Shown: in pieces, positions 14,566 through 23,870 of the stretch
How the letters are laid out: each line of letters starts with the position of its first letter
How positions within the stretch are numbered: the first letter of the stretch is position 1
Virus record (IMG/VR): IMGVR_UViG_3300009508_000029
Coordinates: 1-36,805 of that record
Source of the DNA: a virus
Length of the DNA: 36,805 nucleotides
Reading direction: 5' to 3' (one strand)
The notes under the pieces: generated by a model
The model's input: the letters and a program-made list of their open reading frames with translations, nothing else
The model's database searches: none
What the model was told of the DNA's origin: nothing
Made by a program: the position numbers and the translations under genes

Positions 14566-17500
14566 ATGGCTGACAACTCTTCAAGACGGTTTAAATTCAT
14601 TTCACCCGGCGTCTTTATCGATGAGATCGATAATTCTCAAATACCTCGTACTCCTACGGCAGCAGGTCCCCTTGTTATGGGACGAGCCCAAAGAGGACCC
14701 GCAAACTTACCTGTTACAATCAACTCATTTTCGGAATTTGTTGAAACATTCGGCAACCCTGTTCCTGGCAATATTGCCACGGATGTATGGCGTGAAGGCG
14801 ACTTCACCGCTCCTACCTATGCAGCCTTTGCTGCACAGGCATGGTTAGCCAATAACGGACCTATTACCTTCATGCGAGTGTTGGGTGACGAGTCCGCACA
14901 GGCAACGACTGACGGTAGGGCAGGTTGGAAAGTTCCCCCCGTTGCACAGAGTTATGCCGGCAATGATGACGGCGGAGCCTATGCTCTCGTGGTCTTTCCG
15001 GAGTCTACTGCCAGTAATATCACAGGTTCAGTAGCAGCCCAATTTTATTGCAACTCTGGTCGCATTCTTTTAAGTGGAAGCGCCACTCTTCCCGGCGCTG
15101 ATCCTAGGATGCTCGACGGCTCGACTATACGATCAGTCACCAATATTAACAGTATTAATCTCGTAGTGACTGGGTCTGATCCTGTTGTCAACGAAAAAGT
15201 GACAGTTAGTCTTAATCCTGCCAGTGAAAACTTTATTCGCAAGGCTTTGAACACTAATCCAACTATTACTAATACGGCTATTACTTCTCAGGCCACAATG
15301 ACTGCCTCCCAGGGTGGAAACTTGTGGGTAGGTGAAACTTTTGAGCGATCCCTGTCCCAGGCTAGTACTAGTTCTATTGGAGTACTTGATAGTCTAGGGG
15401 GCAATGCTCTCGCAGCACCCTTCCGAGCAGTACTTTTACCTATGACAATGCCTGACGGCACGATAACAAAGCAGCAAAATGATTTCGAAGGTGCTGCGAC
15501 CCGAGCCTCGACTGGTTGGTTCGTTGCACAGGACTTGTCTAATAATGCCGCTGCTTACTACGCTAGTAACATGCAACGTCTTTTCCGTCTGGAAGCGATT
15601 ACAGCCGGTGAAGAAATCCAAAGGCAAGTAAAAATATCGATTGCAAACATTACTGCACCCAAGGGTAACTTCCAAGATTACGGATCATTCTCGGTCTTGG
15701 TTCGTGCCATTGGTGACACAGATAATGCGGTACAAATCATTGAGCGTTATGATAACCTCAATCTTAACCCGGCATCCCCGGACTTTGTTGCTGCTCGTAT
15801 CGGTGATAAGTACCAGGAATATGATAAGCTCAATCTACGCAATGTAGAGTACGGTCAGTTCCCCAACCAATCTAATTACATCAGAGTCGTTATGGACGAT
15901 GACGTAGCAGCCGGTGTTGGCGAGCGTCGCCTCTTACCCTTCGGTGTGTGGGGACCTCTCAAATACCGTGATGTATCTTATGCTAGCGGATCTGGTGGTT
16001 GGTCAAACTTCGGATCCGCCGCCTCAGGTACGTATGCTAACTCTGTCGAGACCATGCTTAATGGCGGGGACTCATTACGCTTTGGAAATGCTGGATTTTC
16101 CGGTTCAGCATTTTTCTCGGGTAGTCAATCTAATTTCCCAGTTCTTATGGCAACCACCGCTTCGCTGAATTGCAGCATCCGCTTCCCAAGCCTTCCGCTG
16201 CGCCAGTTGAGTACGTGGGGATCCCCCCGCTCTCTTCGTGGTACTTACTGGGGAGCCTGGTCCGGACGTAGTGCAACGGATACTTTCTATAATGAAAGTT
16301 TGCCCGATATGTTACGCCCTCGCTCTTTCGATGTTCAGTCTTCGGGGGAGTCGGCTAATCCAGCGGCAACGACACATGATATTGAAGGTCAGACGACCAC
16401 AAATTCGCTTACTGACTCGGTAGTGACATCTTGGGTCTTCTCTCTTGATAACATTTCTGGATCGGCGACCGCAGGATACGCCTATGGCCCCGGCTACCGC
16501 CGTGACGCCACAAGTGTGTCGGCTATTAACGGGTCGTACACTGCCTCGCTAGACGCAGGCTTGGATCGTTTCACGACGATGCTTGCTGGTGGCTTTAACG
16601 GGTATGACATCACCGAGCGTGAACCTTTCCGCAACAGCGCCTTTAGTACTGCCACGGACGAGAAGGCTTCTTACGAACTGTTTAGTCTTCGTAAAGCAAT
16701 TAACATCGCTTCGGATCCCGACTATGTTCAGATGAATGCAGTGACGATTCCTGGAATCTGGGTATCTTCAGTAACTGATTACTTGCTGGATACAGCCGAG
16801 AATCGTGCAGACACTTTGGCACTTATTGATATTCAGTACGGATATACACCAAGTGCTGAAACAGTGTTGGGGCCGGCTGCTGCTAACGAAGGTAACACGC
16901 CTAGTGCTGCCGCCAATGCTCTAGCAGGACGAAGCATCAACAATAGTTATGGTGCCACATATTACCCATGGGTCCGCATCTTTGATTCCAATACGAATCA
17001 GACATTGTGGGCACCGCCAACCGTTGCTGCCTTGGGTGTCTTGTCAACTACCGACAGACTTCAGGCTCCGTGGTTTGCCCCTGCTGGATTCACCCGAGGT
17101 GGATTGAGTGAGGGTGCTGCTGGCATCCCAGTCCTCGATGTATCTCGCCGCCTGACTTCAGACGACCGAGACACATTGTATGACAATAATATTAACCCAA
17201 TTGCTAAGTTCCCCGCAGAAGGAATCGTAGTGTTTGGTCAAAAGACTCTACAGCAAACAGCATCGGCTTTGGATCGTATTAACGTCCGTCGCTTGATGAT
17301 CTACTTGAAGCGTGAGATTTCCTTCATTGCTTCTCGCTTGTTGTTTGCTCCTAACGTGCAAGATACCTGGGATCGATTTATCGGTCAGGCAACTCCTGTG
17401 CTTGAAAGCGTAAAGGCTGAATTCGGTATTGAAGAATTCCGTCTCATTCTCGACGAAAGCACAACGACTCCTGATCTTATTGATCGTAACATTATCTATG

Positions 17501-17589
17501 CTAAGTTGCTTGTTAAGCCCACAAGGGCAGTCGAGTTCTTCGCAATCGATTTTGTTGTCACAAATAGTGGCGCATCATTTGCGGATTAA
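14566..17589 (+). CDS. 18: Contractile tail sheath protein, gp18-like
   Basis: The N-terminus (FKFISPGVFIDEIDNS, then GPLVMGRAQRGPA) and the C-terminal domain (RRLMIYLKREISFIASRLLF, WDRFIGQATPVLESVKAEFG, RAVEFFAIDFV) are unmistakable sheath signatures. Sheath subunits wrap the tube and contract to drive it into the cell. At 1007 residues it is far longer than T4 gp18 (659); the extra length is in the middle (about 230-700), rich in serine, glycine, alanine and asparagine, and likely forms outward-facing domains. GAGGAGAA precedes the ATG. Confidence 0.96.
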   Translation: MADNSSRRFKFISPGVFIDEIDNSQIPRTPTAAGPLVMGRAQRGPANLPVTINSFSEFVETFGNPVPGNIATDVWREGDFTAPTYAAFAAQAWLANNGPITFMRVLGDESAQATTDGRAGWKVPPVAQSYAGNDDGGAYALVVFPESTASNITGSVAAQFYCNSGRILLSGSATLPGADPRMLDGSTIRSVTNINSINLVVTGSDPVVNEKVTVSLNPASENFIRKALNTNPTITNTAITSQATMTASQGGNLWVGETFERSLSQASTSSIGVLDSLGGNALAAPFRAVLLPMTMPDGTITKQQNDFEGAATRASTGWFVAQDLSNNAAAYYASNMQRLFRLEAITAGEEIQRQVKISIANITAPKGNFQDYGSFSVLVRAIGDTDNAVQIIERYDNLNLNPASPDFVAARIGDKYQEYDKLNLRNVEYGQFPNQSNYIRVVMDDDVAAGVGERRLLPFGVWGPLKYRDVSYASGSGGWSNFGSAASGTYANSVETMLNGGDSLRFGNAGFSGSAFFSGSQSNFPVLMATTASLNCSIRFPSLPLRQLSTWGSPRSLRGTYWGAWSGRSATDTFYNESLPDMLRPRSFDVQSSGESANPAATTHDIEGQTTTNSLTDSVVTSWVFSLDNISGSATAGYAYGPGYRRDATSVSAINGSYTASLDAGLDRFTTMLAGGFNGYDITEREPFRNSAFSTATDEKASYELFSLRKAINIASDPDYVQMNAVTIPGIWVSSVTDYLLDTAENRADTLALIDIQYGYTPSAETVLGPAAANEGNTPSAAANALAGRSINNSYGATYYPWVRIFDSNTNQTLWAPPTVAALGVLSTTDRLQAPWFAPAGFTRGGLSEGAAGIPVLDVSRRLTSDDRDTLYDNNINPIAKFPAEGIVVFGQKTLQQTASALDRINVRRLMIYLKREISFIASRLLFAPNVQDTWDRFIGQATPVLESVKAEFGIEEFRLILDESTTTPDLIDRNIIYAKLLVKPTRAVEFFAIDFVVTNSGASFAD

Positions 17590-17630: not shown

Positions 17631-18200
17631 ATGGCTAGTTTATTTTGGAATGACGTAAGAACTGAACCGAAACGCAGATTTCGATTTGAGTTGAAATTTA
17701 CTAATAAAGTGGAAGGTGTTGCAGTACCGATCCCCGTATGGACGATTAAGACTGCCAGCAAGCCAAAGGCTAATGTAAGTGTAATTGAGCACCAGTACAT
17801 TGACCATACTTTCAAATATCCTGGGCGTGTAACCTGGGATCCCATTACGGTGACTCTGGTTGACCCTGTTGATCCTGATTTGTCTTACGCTTTCTTGGAT
17901 GTCCTCGGAGCCAGTGGGTACAAGTTCCCCACGACTGCAAATAACTCTAAATTAAGTTTGAGCAAGAAGGGCTTTTACGATGCAATCGGCATTGTCATGA
18001 TTGACCAGATTGATGAAGATGGAAATATTATCGAGCGTTGGGAACTTCAAAATCCCTTCATTACCTCGGTAGATTTCGGAGGATCGTTGGACTACTCTTC
18101 AGACGACATGAATGAAGTAACAGTCGAGATTGCCTATGACTGGGCAAAACTGACTAAAACTCAAGCATACGGACTCAGTCAAACTGCTGCGGCAAATTAA
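17631..18200 (+). CDS. 19: Tail tube protein, gp19-like
   Basis: The 189-residue product follows the sheath gene as in T4 and has tube-protein features: WNDVRTEPKRRFRFELKF at the N-terminus, VPIPVWTIKTASKP near 40, YIDHTFKYPGRVTWDPITV near 58-76 and GGSLDYSSDDMNEVTVEIAY near the end. It stacks as hexameric rings to form the channel for DNA. T4 gp19 has 163 residues. AAGGAG lies twelve bases before the ATG. Confidence 0.93.
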   Translation: MASLFWNDVRTEPKRRFRFELKFTNKVEGVAVPIPVWTIKTASKPKANVSVIEHQYIDHTFKYPGRVTWDPITVTLVDPVDPDLSYAFLDVLGASGYKFPTTANNSKLSLSKKGFYDAIGIVMIDQIDEDGNIIERWELQNPFITSVDFGGSLDYSSDDMNEVTVEIAYDWAKLTKTQAYGLSQTAAAN

Positions 18201-18264: not shown

Positions 18265-19158
18265 ATGAGTCGCAATGAAAATCGTACCGAAAATATTGAT
18301 CCGGAATTCCTAGCGGAAGGATCTCCCCAGCCCACCAGTAACACGCCTCCGGGCTTGTCTCCTGACAATAACCCTACAGCCCCTAGTATTAATTGGGCTG
18401 TTCCTAGTGAGTTTGTAGAATTGCCAAGTCAAGGTAGGTTCTATTCCGAGGATCATCCTCTTTACAACCAGACCACTATGGAAATTCGCTATATGACGGC
18501 GAAAGAAGAGGACATCCTCACATCGAAGGCACTCCTCAAGCAGGGCGTTGCACTTGACCGTATGTTACAAAATATTATTGTGGATAAGCGAGTTCGAGTT
18601 GATACACTATTGGTAGGGGATAAAAACGCTCTTCTAGTGGGTGCTCGCCGTACAGGATATGGCGCTGATTACACTACTACTATTACCTGTCCATCATGCG
18701 ACAACGCTGATGAATATACTTTTGACCTAGCAGAGCCGCCCATCAACAATGTGGCAGAAACCCTAGCAACTGCCGACGATATTGTTCAGACCCAGGAAGG
18801 AACCTTTAAGTTTCTTCTTCCTATGACCAAAGTAGAGGTAGAGTGCCGCCTTTTAACAAGTGCGGATGAGGCGGTTTTTTCCAAGAATCTTCAAAAGAAG
18901 AGCCGTGGTAACCAAAGCAGCGGAACCATGACAGAACTGTTCCGAACCTACATTGTAAGTGTAAACGGTGACACGTCTCCCATCATGAAGGAAACCCTCA
19001 TCCAAAACATGCCAGCCCGTGATGCTCGTTACCTTAGAAATCGCTACAGCGAGATTGTTCCTAATATCAATCTAGCCCAACATTATGCTTGCTCTAACTG
19101 TGACTATGAGACCGATATGGAGGTCCCGCTCGGCGTGGACTTTTTTTGGCCTAAGTGA
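18265..19158 (+). CDS. 26: Baseplate hub / tail assembly protein, gp26-like with zinc sites
   Basis: The region from about residue 45 (PSEFVELPSQGRFYSEDHP, EIRYMTAKEEDILTS, KQGVALDRMLQNII) fits the T4 baseplate protein family of gp26. Two CxxC pairs, CPSCD near 145 and CSNCD near 278, probably bind one zinc. The first 40 residues are disordered and proline/asparagine-rich. It ends with VPLGVDFFWPK. T4 gp26 (208 residues) is a baseplate hub component. Its 3' end overlaps an ORF in the +1 frame, and a seven-T run lies three codons before its stop. Confidence 0.8.
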   Translation: MSRNENRTENIDPEFLAEGSPQPTSNTPPGLSPDNNPTAPSINWAVPSEFVELPSQGRFYSEDHPLYNQTTMEIRYMTAKEEDILTSKALLKQGVALDRMLQNIIVDKRVRVDTLLVGDKNALLVGARRTGYGADYTTTITCPSCDNADEYTFDLAEPPINNVAETLATADDIVQTQEGTFKFLLPMTKVEVECRLLTSADEAVFSKNLQKKSRGNQSSGTMTELFRTYIVSVNGDTSPIMKETLIQNMPARDARYLRNRYSEIVPNINLAQHYACSNCDYETDMEVPLGVDFFWPK

Positions 19159-19360
19159 CGAGTATATCCAAAATACTTACCAACAACTGTTCCAACTAAA
19201 GTATTACGGCAATTGGAGTTTCTTCGAAGCCTATAATTTACCAGTTCGTATGCGAATTTGGTTTTTACAGCAAATTAAAGAATACAAGGAACGAGAGAAC
19301 GAACAGCGTCAGCAAGCCCGCCGCAAATCAGGTGGTGCTCGTGGCAAAAGATACACATAA
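19085..19360 (+). CDS. Small tail-assembly ORF overlapping gp26-like gene; start unclear, possible frameshift product
   Basis: The convincing protein part begins after the upstream stop region: DEYIQNTYQQLFQLKYYGNW, then SFFEAYNLPVRMRIWFLQQI and a charged helix rich in glutamate, glutamine, lysine and arginine. Such small proteins (aromatic G-(N/S)-W/F-S-F then LP-V-R) follow gp26-like genes in distant T4-like phages, from memory. In-frame ATGs at 19085 and 19106 lie inside the upstream gene with no ribosome binding site, and none exists between 19109 and the conserved part. It may be made by a +1 (or -2) shift at the T7 run at 19141-19147, as tail-assembly chaperone pairs often are. A gp51-like role is possible. 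Confidence 0.6.
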   Translation: MLALTVTMRPIWRSRSAWTFFGLSDEYIQNTYQQLFQLKYYGNWSFFEAYNLPVRMRIWFLQQIKEYKERENEQRQQARRKSGGARGKRYT

Positions 19361-19408: not shown

Positions 19409-19738
19409 ATGAAGATCGATTTTGAAAACGAAATCCTAGATCTTAACGATTTTAAAAGTGATCAATTGAACGAGAATATTCTCCACGTCTTAGCAGCGTG
19501 GATTGAATACTTATTGTCCAAGATGTTTAAAGGTCGTAGGATCCCAGTAAAAGTACGAGGAAACCGTATTGAGGTGACCCGCTTTACTGACGCTTTGGTC
19601 AACGAAAAAAGATATATGGACTTTATCCGTAAGTATGGACTGGATGATCCCATGACTTACAAACAAAAAGCACGTCTTGATGTGGCAATCCGCCGTTTCG
19701 AGCGTGAGTCTGGTATTAACTGGCCTATCCGGAATTAA
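19409..19738 (+). CDS. Hypothetical protein before tape measure gene
   Basis: A 109-residue, mostly helical protein with a hydrophobic amphipathic stretch (ILHVLAAWIEYLLSKMF, about 25-41) followed by basic segments. GGAGG at 19394-19398 is a strong binding site. I recognise no family. It lies between the small tail-assembly ORF and the tape measure gene, so a tail-assembly role is likely by position. Confidence 0.7.
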   Translation: MKIDFENEILDLNDFKSDQLNENILHVLAAWIEYLLSKMFKGRRIPVKVRGNRIEVTRFTDALVNEKRYMDFIRKYGLDDPMTYKQKARLDVAIRRFERESGINWPIRN

Positions 19739-19755: not shown

Positions 19756-21849
19756 ATGGTAGCGGAAAATGATCCCAAGAAATTAGCGGAAGAACTATTA
19801 AAGCTGCTTAAAAATGCGGCGAACAAAGGGTCTTCAACCTCTTCTACGGAGAGGGCTACTGCTGATGTGAAGGAAGCCGAAGCCGAATTGGCGGCCCGTG
19901 CTAAGAATAACGCCAGTCTTCAAGAGTATCTAGTTCTTTTAGAAAAACAAAAAGAATTAAAGAAACAAAACCTAGACCTTAGCCTACAAGAACAGGCAGC
20001 CATGCGTGCCGCCCAAGCACAACTTGACGAAGCCGACAAGAAACAGATTAAACAGACGGAAAGCACCAAGAAAGCAGCGGCTGCTGTAAAGACATATGAG
20101 CAGGCAGTAGAAAAAGCCAATAAGGCTATCGGACCCTTCGGCGAAGCAATGGGTGCTTCTGCTATTCTTGTGAACCAACTGACACAAGGTCATTTAGCAC
20201 TTTTTACTACAATGGGTGGCGTCTTAGATAAGACGGTGGGAATGGCTTTCTCTATTAGTGATTTGAATGCGGATCTGGCAAAACAGACAGGACAGGTTTC
20301 CGCTTTATCTGATAATTTTGGTCGCCTTAGACAGGATACTGCCAATAATACTTTATCTCTTGTAGACCTTCAAAAGGCTCTAGTGGGTCTCAACTCGGGA
20401 TATCAAGATTTTGCTTTTCTAGGAGAAACAGTCCAGGACGAAGTGGCTTACCTTACCCGAAATTTTAAAGACTTTGGTGCATCGATAGAATCTACGACTA
20501 AAGCCTTTGATTTCTTCGGTACCACGATGAACCAGGCTCCCCGTCAGGCAATTGGCACCCTTAATAGACTTAAGGATCTTACAAGACTAGTGGGACAAGG
20601 AATTGAAACTATCCTGAAGGATCTCGATGGGCTGCGAGATCCCCTTACCAGATACGGGACAGCAGCCGAGGGGCAGTTTATTAAACTAAAGAAGTTGGCC
20701 CGTTCCTTGGGGATGGAAACACAGGATATCTTCAAGGTAGCCGAAGGTTTTGATACGTTCGAGAGTGCCGCTGAAAGAGCAATGATGTTGAACGCCCAGT
20801 TTGGAACTCGGTTAAACAGCGCCTTTATCATGTCTTTGGAACATAATGAAAGAATTTTGGCCATTCGAGGAGAATTCCAGCGCCAAGGTCTTGATGTAAA
20901 CAAGATGAATAGGCGTGAGATCCAAATGCTTGCAGGAGGACTTCAGATCAGCGAAGAACGAGCAAAGCGACTTCTGGATACCCGCAAGAGTCTTCACCAA
21001 ATTACCAAAGAAGATGAAGCAGCGAACAAGCGAATTTCAGACTATCGAGGAGCCACGGAAAAGATTGAAATAGCCATTCAAAACATGCTAGTAAAGAATG
21101 CCGATGTTATGGTTGACTTTGTGAATGGTTTAGGGAATGCCCTTACGAAGCTAGCCGAGATGAAAGATTCAGCCACTGCTTTTGGGCGAGCCCTGACCGG
21201 TGCTTTTACTGGATTTCTGGCGCTGCCTTTCGTGAAGTTTTTCGTTAATATAGGAAAAGTTTTAAGCAAGATTACCGGCTACTTGGGAACGATTGGGAAA
21301 TATATAAAGATTGTCGGCGGAGTGGTCAGTTCCGCATTTGCGATCTTCTTCGCCGCCAAAGACGTGTTGCAATCATTGGGCTTCTTCACCGACTCTGAAG
21401 CCGAACAACAGCAAGCGCAGAAGCGATTGGCAGCGGGCGCAGTCGGCGGCGTCGGCGGTGCGATGATGGGAGGACCTGTGGCCGCCGCTATTGGTTATAT
21501 GACCGCCCGAGAAGCCCCAGGGCTTTTCTCTCCTATGGAGGAGCCGGGAGCCACCGCCTCCGACCCTAATAGTCTCCCTCCGGGAAAATCCACTATCCCC
21601 GTCCAGCAAGGTCCCAAACTTGATGACTTTTTCCTAATCGACGGGGTGTTACACGCCATGAATGAGGGAGATATGGTTCTGGGCGGAACAAATCTTTTGG
21701 GTAATGAAGGCGGCGGATTGAATAAAGGGCAGAAAATAGTCGTTAAAGAACTTACGATGCCTATTACATTAAAGGTGGGCAAGCAAGAGTTCGCCATGGC
21801 GACTGAGACTGCACTTGATGTAATCTTTGATCCATCGTATTTATCCTAG
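19756..21849 (+). CDS. 29: Tail tape measure protein, gp29 analogue
   Basis: The 697-residue product starts with a long charged coiled coil (residues 1-125, rich in alanine, glutamate, lysine, glutamine), has a helical middle and a hydrophobic region at about 475-550 (ALTGAFTGFLALPFVKFF, IKIVGGVVSSAFAIFFAA) with membrane-like segments, then a glycine-rich stretch (AAGAVGGVGGAMMGGPVAAA) and a small C-terminal domain. This layout is typical of tape measure proteins, which set tail length and may help DNA cross the inner membrane. Its place before the gp48/gp54-like pair matches T4 gene 29. It is slightly longer than T4 gp29 (590). Confidence 0.85.
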   Translation: MVAENDPKKLAEELLKLLKNAANKGSSTSSTERATADVKEAEAELAARAKNNASLQEYLVLLEKQKELKKQNLDLSLQEQAAMRAAQAQLDEADKKQIKQTESTKKAAAAVKTYEQAVEKANKAIGPFGEAMGASAILVNQLTQGHLALFTTMGGVLDKTVGMAFSISDLNADLAKQTGQVSALSDNFGRLRQDTANNTLSLVDLQKALVGLNSGYQDFAFLGETVQDEVAYLTRNFKDFGASIESTTKAFDFFGTTMNQAPRQAIGTLNRLKDLTRLVGQGIETILKDLDGLRDPLTRYGTAAEGQFIKLKKLARSLGMETQDIFKVAEGFDTFESAAERAMMLNAQFGTRLNSAFIMSLEHNERILAIRGEFQRQGLDVNKMNRREIQMLAGGLQISEERAKRLLDTRKSLHQITKEDEAANKRISDYRGATEKIEIAIQNMLVKNADVMVDFVNGLGNALTKLAEMKDSATAFGRALTGAFTGFLALPFVKFFVNIGKVLSKITGYLGTIGKYIKIVGGVVSSAFAIFFAAKDVLQSLGFFTDSEAEQQQAQKRLAAGAVGGVGGAMMGGPVAAAIGYMTAREAPGLFSPMEEPGATASDPNSLPPGKSTIPVQQGPKLDDFFLIDGVLHAMNEGDMVLGGTNLLGNEGGGLNKGQKIVVKELTMPITLKVGKQEFAMATETALDVIFDPSYLS

Positions 21850-21861
21850 GGAGAAGAAAAG

Positions 21862-22911
21862 ATGTCATCACCATTTAAACTTATCGATGAACGTATCGCT
21901 GCCACCAACGAGCGTCGGCTCCGAGAAATTGAAACCCTTAAGAGCTTTGAACGAGACAAAATGCTCACAGGTGCTCAAAATTTGTTCCGAAGACAGGGGC
22001 AAGACTTAACTATGATGCATGTACCTACTGGGTACCTCGTCAAGTTTCCTGCTTTTTTAGATAATATTAATGATGCTTACACTTCGAAATGGACTGAGGA
22101 ATCCGTCTTTGGGCGCATGGACCCTATCAGTGTGTTTTCTCACACTGAGCGTGTTATTTCTGTCGCTTGGAATGTGCCAGCGGATTCATTCGAACAGGCT
22201 GAGGCTAACCTTGCGAGAGTTAATCAACTTATTAGTTTCCTCTATCCTTTGTATGACAAGAGCAATGGAGAAACTGGGGCAACAGATATAAATCAAAGTC
22301 CGTTGATCCGTCTAAGTTTTGGAAACATCATCAAAGCCCCCGGTGCTACAGGTCTGTTGGGGTTTGTAAATGGAATAACCTTTGATCCTATTTTAGATTA
22401 TGGAATGTTTAATCGTAAAAAGATTGGCGGGGCTCGGTTAAATGGGGACCCCCAGGATAATGAATACTTCCCCAAAACTTTTCGCCTTAACCTGGAATTC
22501 AATGTTCTGCACGAGAATGAACTGGGGTTTAAAACTTTCGTCAAGCAGAAGAAGAGATTTCAGGAGTCATCCACCAATCAGCGAGGGGAACGCTTTACTT
22601 TCCATGACTCAAATCTAGATTTTAACAACTTTCCTTATAAAACAGAGGGAGCCAAGACCGGATTTGGGAGTGAGAATTATATCTCTTATCCGACTGCTAA
22701 TTCGAGTGGTGATGGATATCTTCCAACTCCCTCGGAAATCATTCAGGACAAAATTGCCCAACAGGCAAAATATCGGAGTGATAATCCTGGCTCTTCTCGT
22801 TACAATCAGAATGGTGTGCCAGGCGAGGGGAGGATGAAAGAGATGGAACCCTCAGGGTTTGGTCTTGTTTATAATTCCAAAGATGGCTTTTTTAGTAAAA
22901 CCCGGTTTTAG
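21862..22911 (+). CDS. 48: Baseplate tail-tube initiator, gp48/gp54-type (first copy)
   Basis: The 349-residue product contains a core shared with the next gene: QGQDLTMMHVPTGYLVKFPA, ISVAWNVPADSFEQAEANLA, RVNQLISFLYPLYD, GITFDPILDYGMFNRKK and GDPQDNEYFPKTFRLNLEF. T4 has two tube-like baseplate proteins, gp48 and gp54, in this order after gp29; they nucleate the tube on the hub. Assignment to gp48 rather than gp54 rests on order. The C-terminal 100 residues are specific to this copy and look flexible. GGGAGAAG precedes the ATG. Confidence 0.72.
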   Translation: MSSPFKLIDERIAATNERRLREIETLKSFERDKMLTGAQNLFRRQGQDLTMMHVPTGYLVKFPAFLDNINDAYTSKWTEESVFGRMDPISVFSHTERVISVAWNVPADSFEQAEANLARVNQLISFLYPLYDKSNGETGATDINQSPLIRLSFGNIIKAPGATGLLGFVNGITFDPILDYGMFNRKKIGGARLNGDPQDNEYFPKTFRLNLEFNVLHENELGFKTFVKQKKRFQESSTNQRGERFTFHDSNLDFNNFPYKTEGAKTGFGSENYISYPTANSSGDGYLPTPSEIIQDKIAQQAKYRSDNPGSSRYNQNGVPGEGRMKEMEPSGFGLVYNSKDGFFSKTRF

Positions 22912-22925
22912 GGAGATTTTGATTT

Positions 22926-23870
22926 ATGGCTAAGACAAGGACATCTGAAGAGGCTTTGCTCGAAAATGAACTCATATCAGCCGGACTAGGTGATACAAGA
23001 GTCGCCACTGATCGGAGCACTGTTCTAAAGCGCACCATCAATGACGATAACCAAGTTCCAGGAGCCTGGAATCAGTTCAAGGGTCAAGGACAAGATCTTA
23101 CTATCCGCCATATTGCCACGGGTTTTCAAGTAAAATTCCCTGCTTTCTTGGAAGAGTTGAGCGACGGTTACACTTCTACATGGCGCAAACAAACTGCTTT
23201 TGGTCGTCAGGATCAGATCGAAACCTTTCAGGGTGTAAAGCGGGCTATATCTGTTGCATGGGTAGTTCCTGCTGATTCTTTCGAACACGCTCAGGCAAAT
23301 CTTGCACGGGTTAACAAACTCCTAAGTTTCTTGTATCCTGTATATGATGTGCGACCCATAGGAGGATATGCTGTTCAGAACCAAGACCCTCTGTGGAAGT
23401 TAAGTTTTGGTAATCTAATTCGCAATGCTAAGACTGGGGCTGGATTAATGGGGTATATAAATGGCATAACATTTGATCCCAATGTAGATATTGGGTTATT
23501 TAATCGAAAGAAAACTGCTGGTCCTCGAACTGGGGATCCGCAGGATAACGAATACTACCCTAAGGCGATTAAGTTGAACTTTGAGTTTACTGTCCTTCAC
23601 GATTATTCTTTGGGCTACCAAGCCAAGCCAGCATCAGAATCCGTGGTCACTACCTCTAACGGGGTGGCAGTAGAGACCCAAAAGACTTCATATGTATTTA
23701 ACGAGCCCACTTTGAATTTTGGCAACTTTCCCTACAAGACAGATAAATATCCGGGTGCTCGCAACACAGAGAGTATCATCCTTCCTACAAACAAAGTGAA
23801 TGATGTTTATGCATCTGATATCCCCTCTCCTAATCTTACCTTCACTCGGAACCCGGACCCTGGCCCCTGA
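22926..23870 (+). CDS. 54: Baseplate tail-tube initiator, gp48/gp54-type (second copy)
   Basis: The 314-residue product is a clear paralog of the one before: GQGQDLTIRHIATGFQVKFP, ISVAWVVPADSFEHAQANLA, RVNKLLSFLYPVYD, GITFDPNVDIGLFNRKK and GDPQDNEYYPKAIKLNFEF match in order. In T4, gp54 follows gp48 and starts tube polymerisation; length (T4 gp54 is 320) agrees. The N-terminal 45 residues and the C-terminus differ from the first copy. GGGAG lies before the ATG. Confidence 0.72.
   Translation: MAKTRTSEEALLENELISAGLGDTRVATDRSTVLKRTINDDNQVPGAWNQFKGQGQDLTIRHIATGFQVKFPAFLEELSDGYTSTWRKQTAFGRQDQIETFQGVKRAISVAWVVPADSFEHAQANLARVNKLLSFLYPVYDVRPIGGYAVQNQDPLWKLSFGNLIRNAKTGAGLMGYINGITFDPNVDIGLFNRKKTAGPRTGDPQDNEYYPKAIKLNFEFTVLHDYSLGYQAKPASESVVTTSNGVAVETQKTSYVFNEPTLNFGNFPYKTDKYPGARNTESIILPTNKVNDVYASDIPSPNLTFTRNPDPGP

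Follow-up and report, generated by a model that had tools for sequence, protein, structure and literature searches.

Frameshifting in the genes of tail assembly chaperones (TACs) is classic. In a paper of 2022, Vladimirov, Gautam and Davidson (Virology 566:9-15) reportedly identified the TAC genes of T4-like phages, in several groups of which TAC-C is said to be joined to a gp26-type TAC-N by frameshifting. T4 itself has gene 26 and gene 51 as two separate genes on opposite strands, whereas the window, by which I mean the whole stretch of 36,805 nucleotides of viral DNA analysed here, holds a single locus with adjoining frames. According to the available passages of the 2016 review PMC5009743, the G-T frameshift is widely conserved with the exception of T4, the shift in the archaeal HSTV-2 is very likely +1, and lambda G/GT shifts by -1, as opposed to the +1 of the window. 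In the accessible parts of PMC12846349, the poly-T signals of T4-like TACs are described as -1, again opposite to the direction proposed for the window. The same parts describe a TAC in the Pakpunavirus Adele which resembles that of the window in that TAC-N ends with a conserved poly-T signal; however, that signal, GTTTTT, works in the -1 direction, unlike the +1 of the window.

The +1 sites of release factor 2 (RF2, gene prfB) are given as CUU_U, and more rarely UUU_U, in the available portions of PMC5009743 and PMC12421855. The likeness to the locus described here lies in the slip codon, which is either CUU_U or the minority form UUU_U, and in the proposed forward slip of the tRNA in the P site. 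Compared with RF2 as these portions present it, the site in the window has a sense codon rather than a stop in the A site, no Shine-Dalgarno (SD) sequence at 3 nt and no known autoregulation, and it would yield two assembly proteins. A further likeness is to the bypass of T4 gene 60. Section 36 of PMC5009743 describes a hairpin there immediately on the 5' side of the shift, and the closing of its last pairs, as the mRNA emerges from the exit channel, could pull the mRNA. Unlike the 50-nt hop of gene 60, the shift proposed here is of a single base, and the putative 5' hairpin occurs in some relatives only. A literature search that covered titles, abstract openings, passages and few subscription papers returned no description of a +1 shift in T4-like TACs, and within the same scope neither the rule for the base before the run nor the covarying hairpins of the relatives, both given below, were found. 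The +1 direction may already be stated in the 2022 paper of Vladimirov and co-workers.

The source record carries a T4-type terminase, a gp20 portal, a gp23 capsid and sheath genes, and the features described below from the tail sheath gene to the tape measure gene lie on the plus strand. The TAC locus (18265-19360) sits between a tube-like gene and a tape measure gene. The former, annotated as tail tube (17631-18200), matches PF06841 gp19 at E 1.6e-5 with 25.2 bits, which is under the curated cut-off of 28.2, and follows the tail sheath gene (14566-17589; PF17482, E 1.8e-9). The tape measure gene (19756-21849; phrog_167 tail length tape measure, E 1.3e-8) is separated from TAC-C by one small gene (19409-19738), for which a Pfam search gave no match at E 0.1. 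Beyond the tape measure gene, the genes at 21862-22911 and 22926-23870 look like tandem paralogues, with the common motif GQDLT..H..TG..VKFPAFL.

The gp26-like gene (18265-19158), putatively the short form TAC-N, encodes 297 amino acids ending in FFWPK, and its 3' end reads TTT TTT TGG CCT AAG TGA in frame 0, the stop TGA being at 19156-19158. The sequence-only reading of this DNA had drawn attention to a run of seven Ts three codons before the stop; the run is indeed present at 19141-19147, in frame 0 as TTT TTT T(GG) and preceded by a C at 19140, and the three codons TGG CCT AAG lie between TTT TTT and the stop. The same reading had assigned the downstream open reading frame to +1 relative to the gp26-like gene, which is confirmed: the frame is open up to 19360, and the part after the slip (19148-19360 with its stop, 70 amino acids) is recognised as TAC-C by the open frame, the profile and the family alignment. 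I regard it as highly probable that this is the TAC gene of a T4-like myovirus with a programmed +1 ribosomal frameshift. Most ribosomes would read through to the TGA and make the 297-residue TAC-N. Some would wait with peptidyl-tRNA-Phe on the UUU at 19144-19146, the slip codon proposed from the statistics of codon 2 and the analogy to RF2, and with the Trp codon UGG (19147-19149), proposed as the waiting codon from the A-site codon counts, in the zero-frame A site. These waiting ribosomes would slip one base onto the UUU at 19145-19147 and then read GGC CUA AGU and so on to 19360, producing the predicted fusion TAC-NC of 364 amino acids with the junction ...DFF-GLSDEYIQ.

The gp26-like protein matches PF12322 T4_baseplate (E 1.7e-13; 51.2 bits against a cut-off of 24.5) and the baseplate hub family phrog_150 (E 4.9e-14), and its AlphaFold2 model has a mean pLDDT of 90.8. 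With VIA-align, residues 35-142 gave 3fgx at Z 6.7, 3klu (YqbN) at 6.0, 2ob9 (the HK97 TAC) at 5.6 and the next entry at 4.0, where a Z below 8 may reflect chance similarity; 3fgx and 3klu I take to be TAC proteins as well. Foldseek placed 2ob9 at rank 1, weakly at E 0.37. Among viral models, 62 match the protein at E <=0.001, and those listed under a name are mostly proteins of the baseplate hub or of its assembly. Comparing profiles with T4 gp26 and gp51 gave weak results (probability 26.8% and 16.5%, respectively) that covered little beyond a zinc-ribbon stretch, and a sequence search of the PDB with the TAC-N profile found nothing but a de novo protein (E 0.05). TAC-C resembles DUF6760, with 20 of 50 members matching at E 0.05 (best 3.2e-5, the window being under the cut-off), so that DUF6760 may be the TAC-C domain elsewhere; the DUF6760 model also matches 4 of 14 control genomes below the cut-off, and such weak matches say little. 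A match to phrog_634, baseplate hub assembly catalyst, was obtained for 5 of 50 members (best E 0.0016), and hhalign did not show homology of TAC-C to T4 gp51 (probability 0.1%). From the likeness in fold and the position of its first product, the locus most likely makes TAC-N and TAC-NC, and on fold, position and family together a TAC function is its most likely role.

Relatives were gathered by similarity to the gp26-like protein, from six scans of viral contigs (the best 80 at most from each) and from annotated phages; the printed search peptides of these scans fall outside the slip site. Of the 269 loci collected, 6 with truncated ends were dropped, which leaves 263 loci, the window included, with 208 distinct junctions (some contigs are present more than once). 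A TAC-C profile was seeded from 19 sequences in the +1 frame and run on the three forward frames, where it found the domain in 259 loci, 248 in +1 and 11 in -1. Rebuilt on these hits, the profile recovered the domain from 262 of the 263 loci, in +1 in 248, in -1 in 14 and in frame 0 in none, and the sole miss (L038) carries the motif and ends before TAC-C. That the downstream frame is conserved, as it had seemed from the single sequence, is thereby borne out. At 90% amino-acid identity the loci form 186 clusters, with 175 in +1, 10 in -1 and 1 without a call. The analyses of the aligned site use 172 of the 175 +1 clusters, L045 and L085 (both TTT TTT C) and L084 (TTT TTT A) being left out, and L089 and L090 stand outside the census. 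Comparison of related genomes, which the earlier reading had proposed as a check, shows that relatives with as little as about 30% identity still have the T-run motif and the +1 relation, which is far beyond chance; at the sequence level there is strong support for the suggested programmed frameshift at a TAC locus ahead of the tape measure gene. Contigs from MAGs, mostly of Flavobacteriales and not used to define the motif, agree: all 7 complete junctions read TTT TTT T, have the domain in +1 and have no T preceding the run, where the test covers complete junctions (L278 is a truncated eighth MAG locus) and kinship to the census loci is not accounted for.

The codons of the site are chosen in a way specific to the direction of the shift. 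Of the 172 aligned +1 clusters, 163 have TTT and 9 have TTC as codon 1, and codon 2 is TTT in 160, CTT in 11, CTA in 1 and TTC in none. Background Phe codons are 79% TTT and 21% TTC, and the probability that all 160 Phe codons at codon 2 are TTT is log10 P ~ -21.7 (based on per-gene usage, with kinship ignored). With TTT or CTT at codon 2 in 171 of the 172 clusters, the tRNA would therefore nearly always be able to re-pair one base forward, and the UUU_U of the window is of the same RF2 type. In the A site, TGG is found in 162 clusters, TAC in 7 and TTT, TTC and CGT in one each. The base preceding the run is C in 102 clusters, G in 38, A in 29 and T in 3, with T at 37.4% of background third bases; T is avoided here in the +1 lineages, and the -1 heptamer U UUU UUU is lost with it. 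Neither of two known arrangements was seen in the window: the SD sequence 3 nt upstream and the A-site stop of RF2 are absent, the GGAGGT being 19 nt upstream and the A-site codon TGG, and a -1 heptamer X XXY YYZ with a downstream -1 frame is absent as well, with C at 19140 and the downstream frame in +1.

Taken together, this pattern fits an RF2-like +1 slip better than a -2 slip, slippage by the polymerase or separate initiation. Between +1 and -2 the earlier reading had not chosen. The two lead into the same frame, and TTTTTTT permits a -2 slip of the ribosome, as in Mu, which would add one Phe at the junction; the TTT CTT sites by themselves are also compatible with it. However, where codon 1 is TTC, in 9 of 172 clusters, a tRNA paired with UUU in the P site would have to move onto UCU, the preceding T should be irrelevant and yet is avoided, and the pair of CUU_U and UUU_U is that of +1 shifting in RF2 in the available portions of PMC5009743 and PMC12421855. 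I favour +1 because 11 clusters have CTT_T as the slip codon, because TTC TTT T is among the variants and because a T is avoided ahead of the run, and consider a -2 slip improbable.

There is likewise little chance that RNA polymerase slips on the seven Ts, which would give mRNAs minus one U in which a normal ribosome joins the frames. A run of 7 Ts is a possible slippage site, but it is interrupted in the clusters with TTTCTTT (11) and TTCTTTT (8), in which the +1 frame is kept, and longer runs are rare, with a T before TTTTTTT in 1 of 172 clusters (L137) and TTT TTT TTT in 1 (L035). The covarying hairpins beside the site in some relatives also point to translation, without being proof of it.

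In the -1 lineages the base before the run is different. All five -1 clusters that have a T run have a T ahead of it, the sites being GGT TTT TTC (L088), AAT TTT TTC (L247), AGT TTT TTC (L249), GAT TTT TTC (L250) and AGT TTT TTT (L086, RAS14); the isolate PA5oct, with its frame assigned by eye, is -1 with AGT TTT TTC. Exceptions exist. L137 reads AAT TTT TTT TGG, with a T before the seven Ts, yet it is +1, and LIS04 (L084, TTT TTT A) and L087 (TTT CTA T) require a slip one codon earlier. No such site was seen in the isolate Slicko01. Three -1 clusters (L056, L080 and L094) read AAT TTC TTC, with no clear slip site; TTCTTCTGGCCTTCCCG(G/A)TAG is conserved among them, their downstream domain is in -1, and the sequence matches none of the known slip motifs. 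The remaining two, L262 and L266, are without a T run and have an ATG a few bases past the gp26 stop, and TAC-C looks like a separate gene in them. The labels +1, -1 and separate require no fewer than 4 changes on a FastTree tree, in which L262 and L266 are placed with the +1 rows, with a support of 13 only.

That the downstream frame of the window is such a separate gene, expressed by reinitiation or from the ATG at 19085 or 19106 and never fused, is very improbable: although these ATGs exist, L262 and L266 have theirs just past the stop, and a scan scoring start codons alone (ATG, GTG or TTG in the +1 frame, between its upstream stop and the tenth codon after the slip) finds at least one possible start in 100 of the 175 +1 clusters (ATG in 44; a start at or after the slip in 19), the other 75 have none, L262 and L266 are those without the T run, and TTT_T/CTT_T and a single constant frame in 175 of 186 clusters would be left unexplained. 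Of the separate start and ribosome binding site in relatives, which the sequence-only reading had named as evidence against a frameshift, a possible start codon is thus present in many +1 clusters and no ATG, GTG or TTG in the others, and the separate arrangement is suggested for the two clusters lacking the run. In the window itself, no SD sequence is found ahead of the ATG at 19085 or that at 19106, as had been stated. The accompanying statement, that no start follows 19109, holds for ATG, GTG and TTG up to 19250, where there is an ATG that lies within the conserved core.

Sequences that could stimulate the proposed +1 shift were sought on both sides of the run. The SD-like GGAGGT of the window (19119-19124) lies 19 nt 5' of the proposed slip codon. 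In its column GAG is used for 31 of 32 Glu codons among the 43 clusters near the window, and SD-like 5-mers at -45..-5 number 322 against 139 expected from synonymous shuffles (172 clusters). This sequence was considered as a possible frameshift stimulator, but its spacing of 19 nt fits neither the 3 nt for +1 nor the 9-14 nt for -1 that are given in PMC5009743, and as a possible ribosome binding site of the second frame, but +1 has no start there.

In the stretch from -40 to 0 ahead of the run, the 172 clusters fold more strongly than their synonymous shuffles, with a mean z of -1.66 (s.e. 0.13), as compared with -0.06 to -0.15 for windows from -200 to -80. Because GC-rich codons inflate this result, it was repeated with dinucleotide shuffles, which gave a mean z of -0.96 (s.e. 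0.11) for -40 to 0 and -0.12 to -0.34 for -160 to -40; on the other side of the run the dinucleotide z is -0.89 for +12 to +45 and -0.49 for +49 to +89. A search for one set of base pairs common to the 172 +1 clusters as a whole gave none, and the geometry of the hairpins varies by clade. Covariation was therefore counted within three clades, which were picked after the predicted folds had been seen and whose members were taken by protein identity.

In a clade of 12 members, an upstream hairpin has 83.3% of its cells paired versus 75.9% in shuffles, and a covariation of 0.331 versus 0.195, values that none of 500 shuffles reached; with shifted pairings no more than 56.9% is paired. A downstream hairpin directly after TGGCCN, in two registers, is counted in 34 of the 172 clusters (a count without a shuffle control of its own), and its covariation is 0.267 versus 0.129 in 17 distinct rows and 0.490 versus 0.255 in 7 rows, again with 0 of 500 shuffles as high in each. 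Hairpins that covary are thus seen in some relatives. By stricter measures covariation is weaker or absent in all three clades: for two-sided pair changes 21, 49 and 46 of 500 shuffles were as high, and for further pair types 36, 200 and 496 (the clade with the upstream hairpin first). Upstream folding is weaker in the clusters with the downstream hairpin (-6.3 vs -9.2 kcal/mol, Mann-Whitney p 1e-4, uncorrected for kinship). In the hairpin of the 12-member clade, the top occupies -25 to -14 and the 3' strand of the lower part -11 to -4. When the slip codon is in the P site, this top would have left the ribosome and the lower strand would lie within the exit channel, an arrangement similar to that put forward for the 5' stem-loop motor of T4 gene 60.

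The window has no convincing hairpin on either side of its slip site. Upstream, its folding has a z of -2.5 versus synonymous shuffles and -0.17 versus dinucleotide shuffles, and downstream it folds worse than dinucleotide shuffles (z +1.42). Nine near relatives share a consensus hairpin upstream, 3 of whose 7 pairs are broken in the window. For the 19 clusters at >=45% identity, the window among them, the mean upstream z is -1.54.

A wider proposal, which I offer tentatively and think possible rather than probable, is that T4-like TACs share a single site with two directions, in which C, G or A before UUUUUU(U) would give +1 and U would give -1. Where a +1 lineage has a 5' hairpin, its zipping shut would pull the mRNA one base forward, as proposed for T4 gene 60, and other lineages would have swapped the 5' for a 3' hairpin. 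If true, there would be natural -1 and +1 versions that differ in the base before the T run, and hence a testable determinant of frameshift direction, and the swapped hairpins would allow a test of whether a ribosome can be pushed forward by a hairpin behind it. The frameshift itself, if true, would provide a large natural comparative set of +1 sites, and the correct gene model where several isolated phages have a TAC locus annotated as overlapping or truncated hypothetical genes.

Among isolates, a fitting site is found in Mel-JY01, immuto, SP-15 and GXN1, and RM378 (TCC TTT TTT TGG, +1) and BRock also fit, with frames assigned by eye; this survey leaves out LuckySocke, Alone3, Slickus01, pSt2308, Callisto, sp. 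30-2 and Cassandra. In the isolates examined for annotation (L081, which is Mel-JY01, L082, L085, L280 and L281), the locus is not annotated as a frameshifted gene. It appears there either as an overlapping pair (WWT39325/WWT39326) or with a short downstream hypothetical gene in the +1 frame (immuto35A_232, SP15_046, HWB05_gp135 and Rm378p030).
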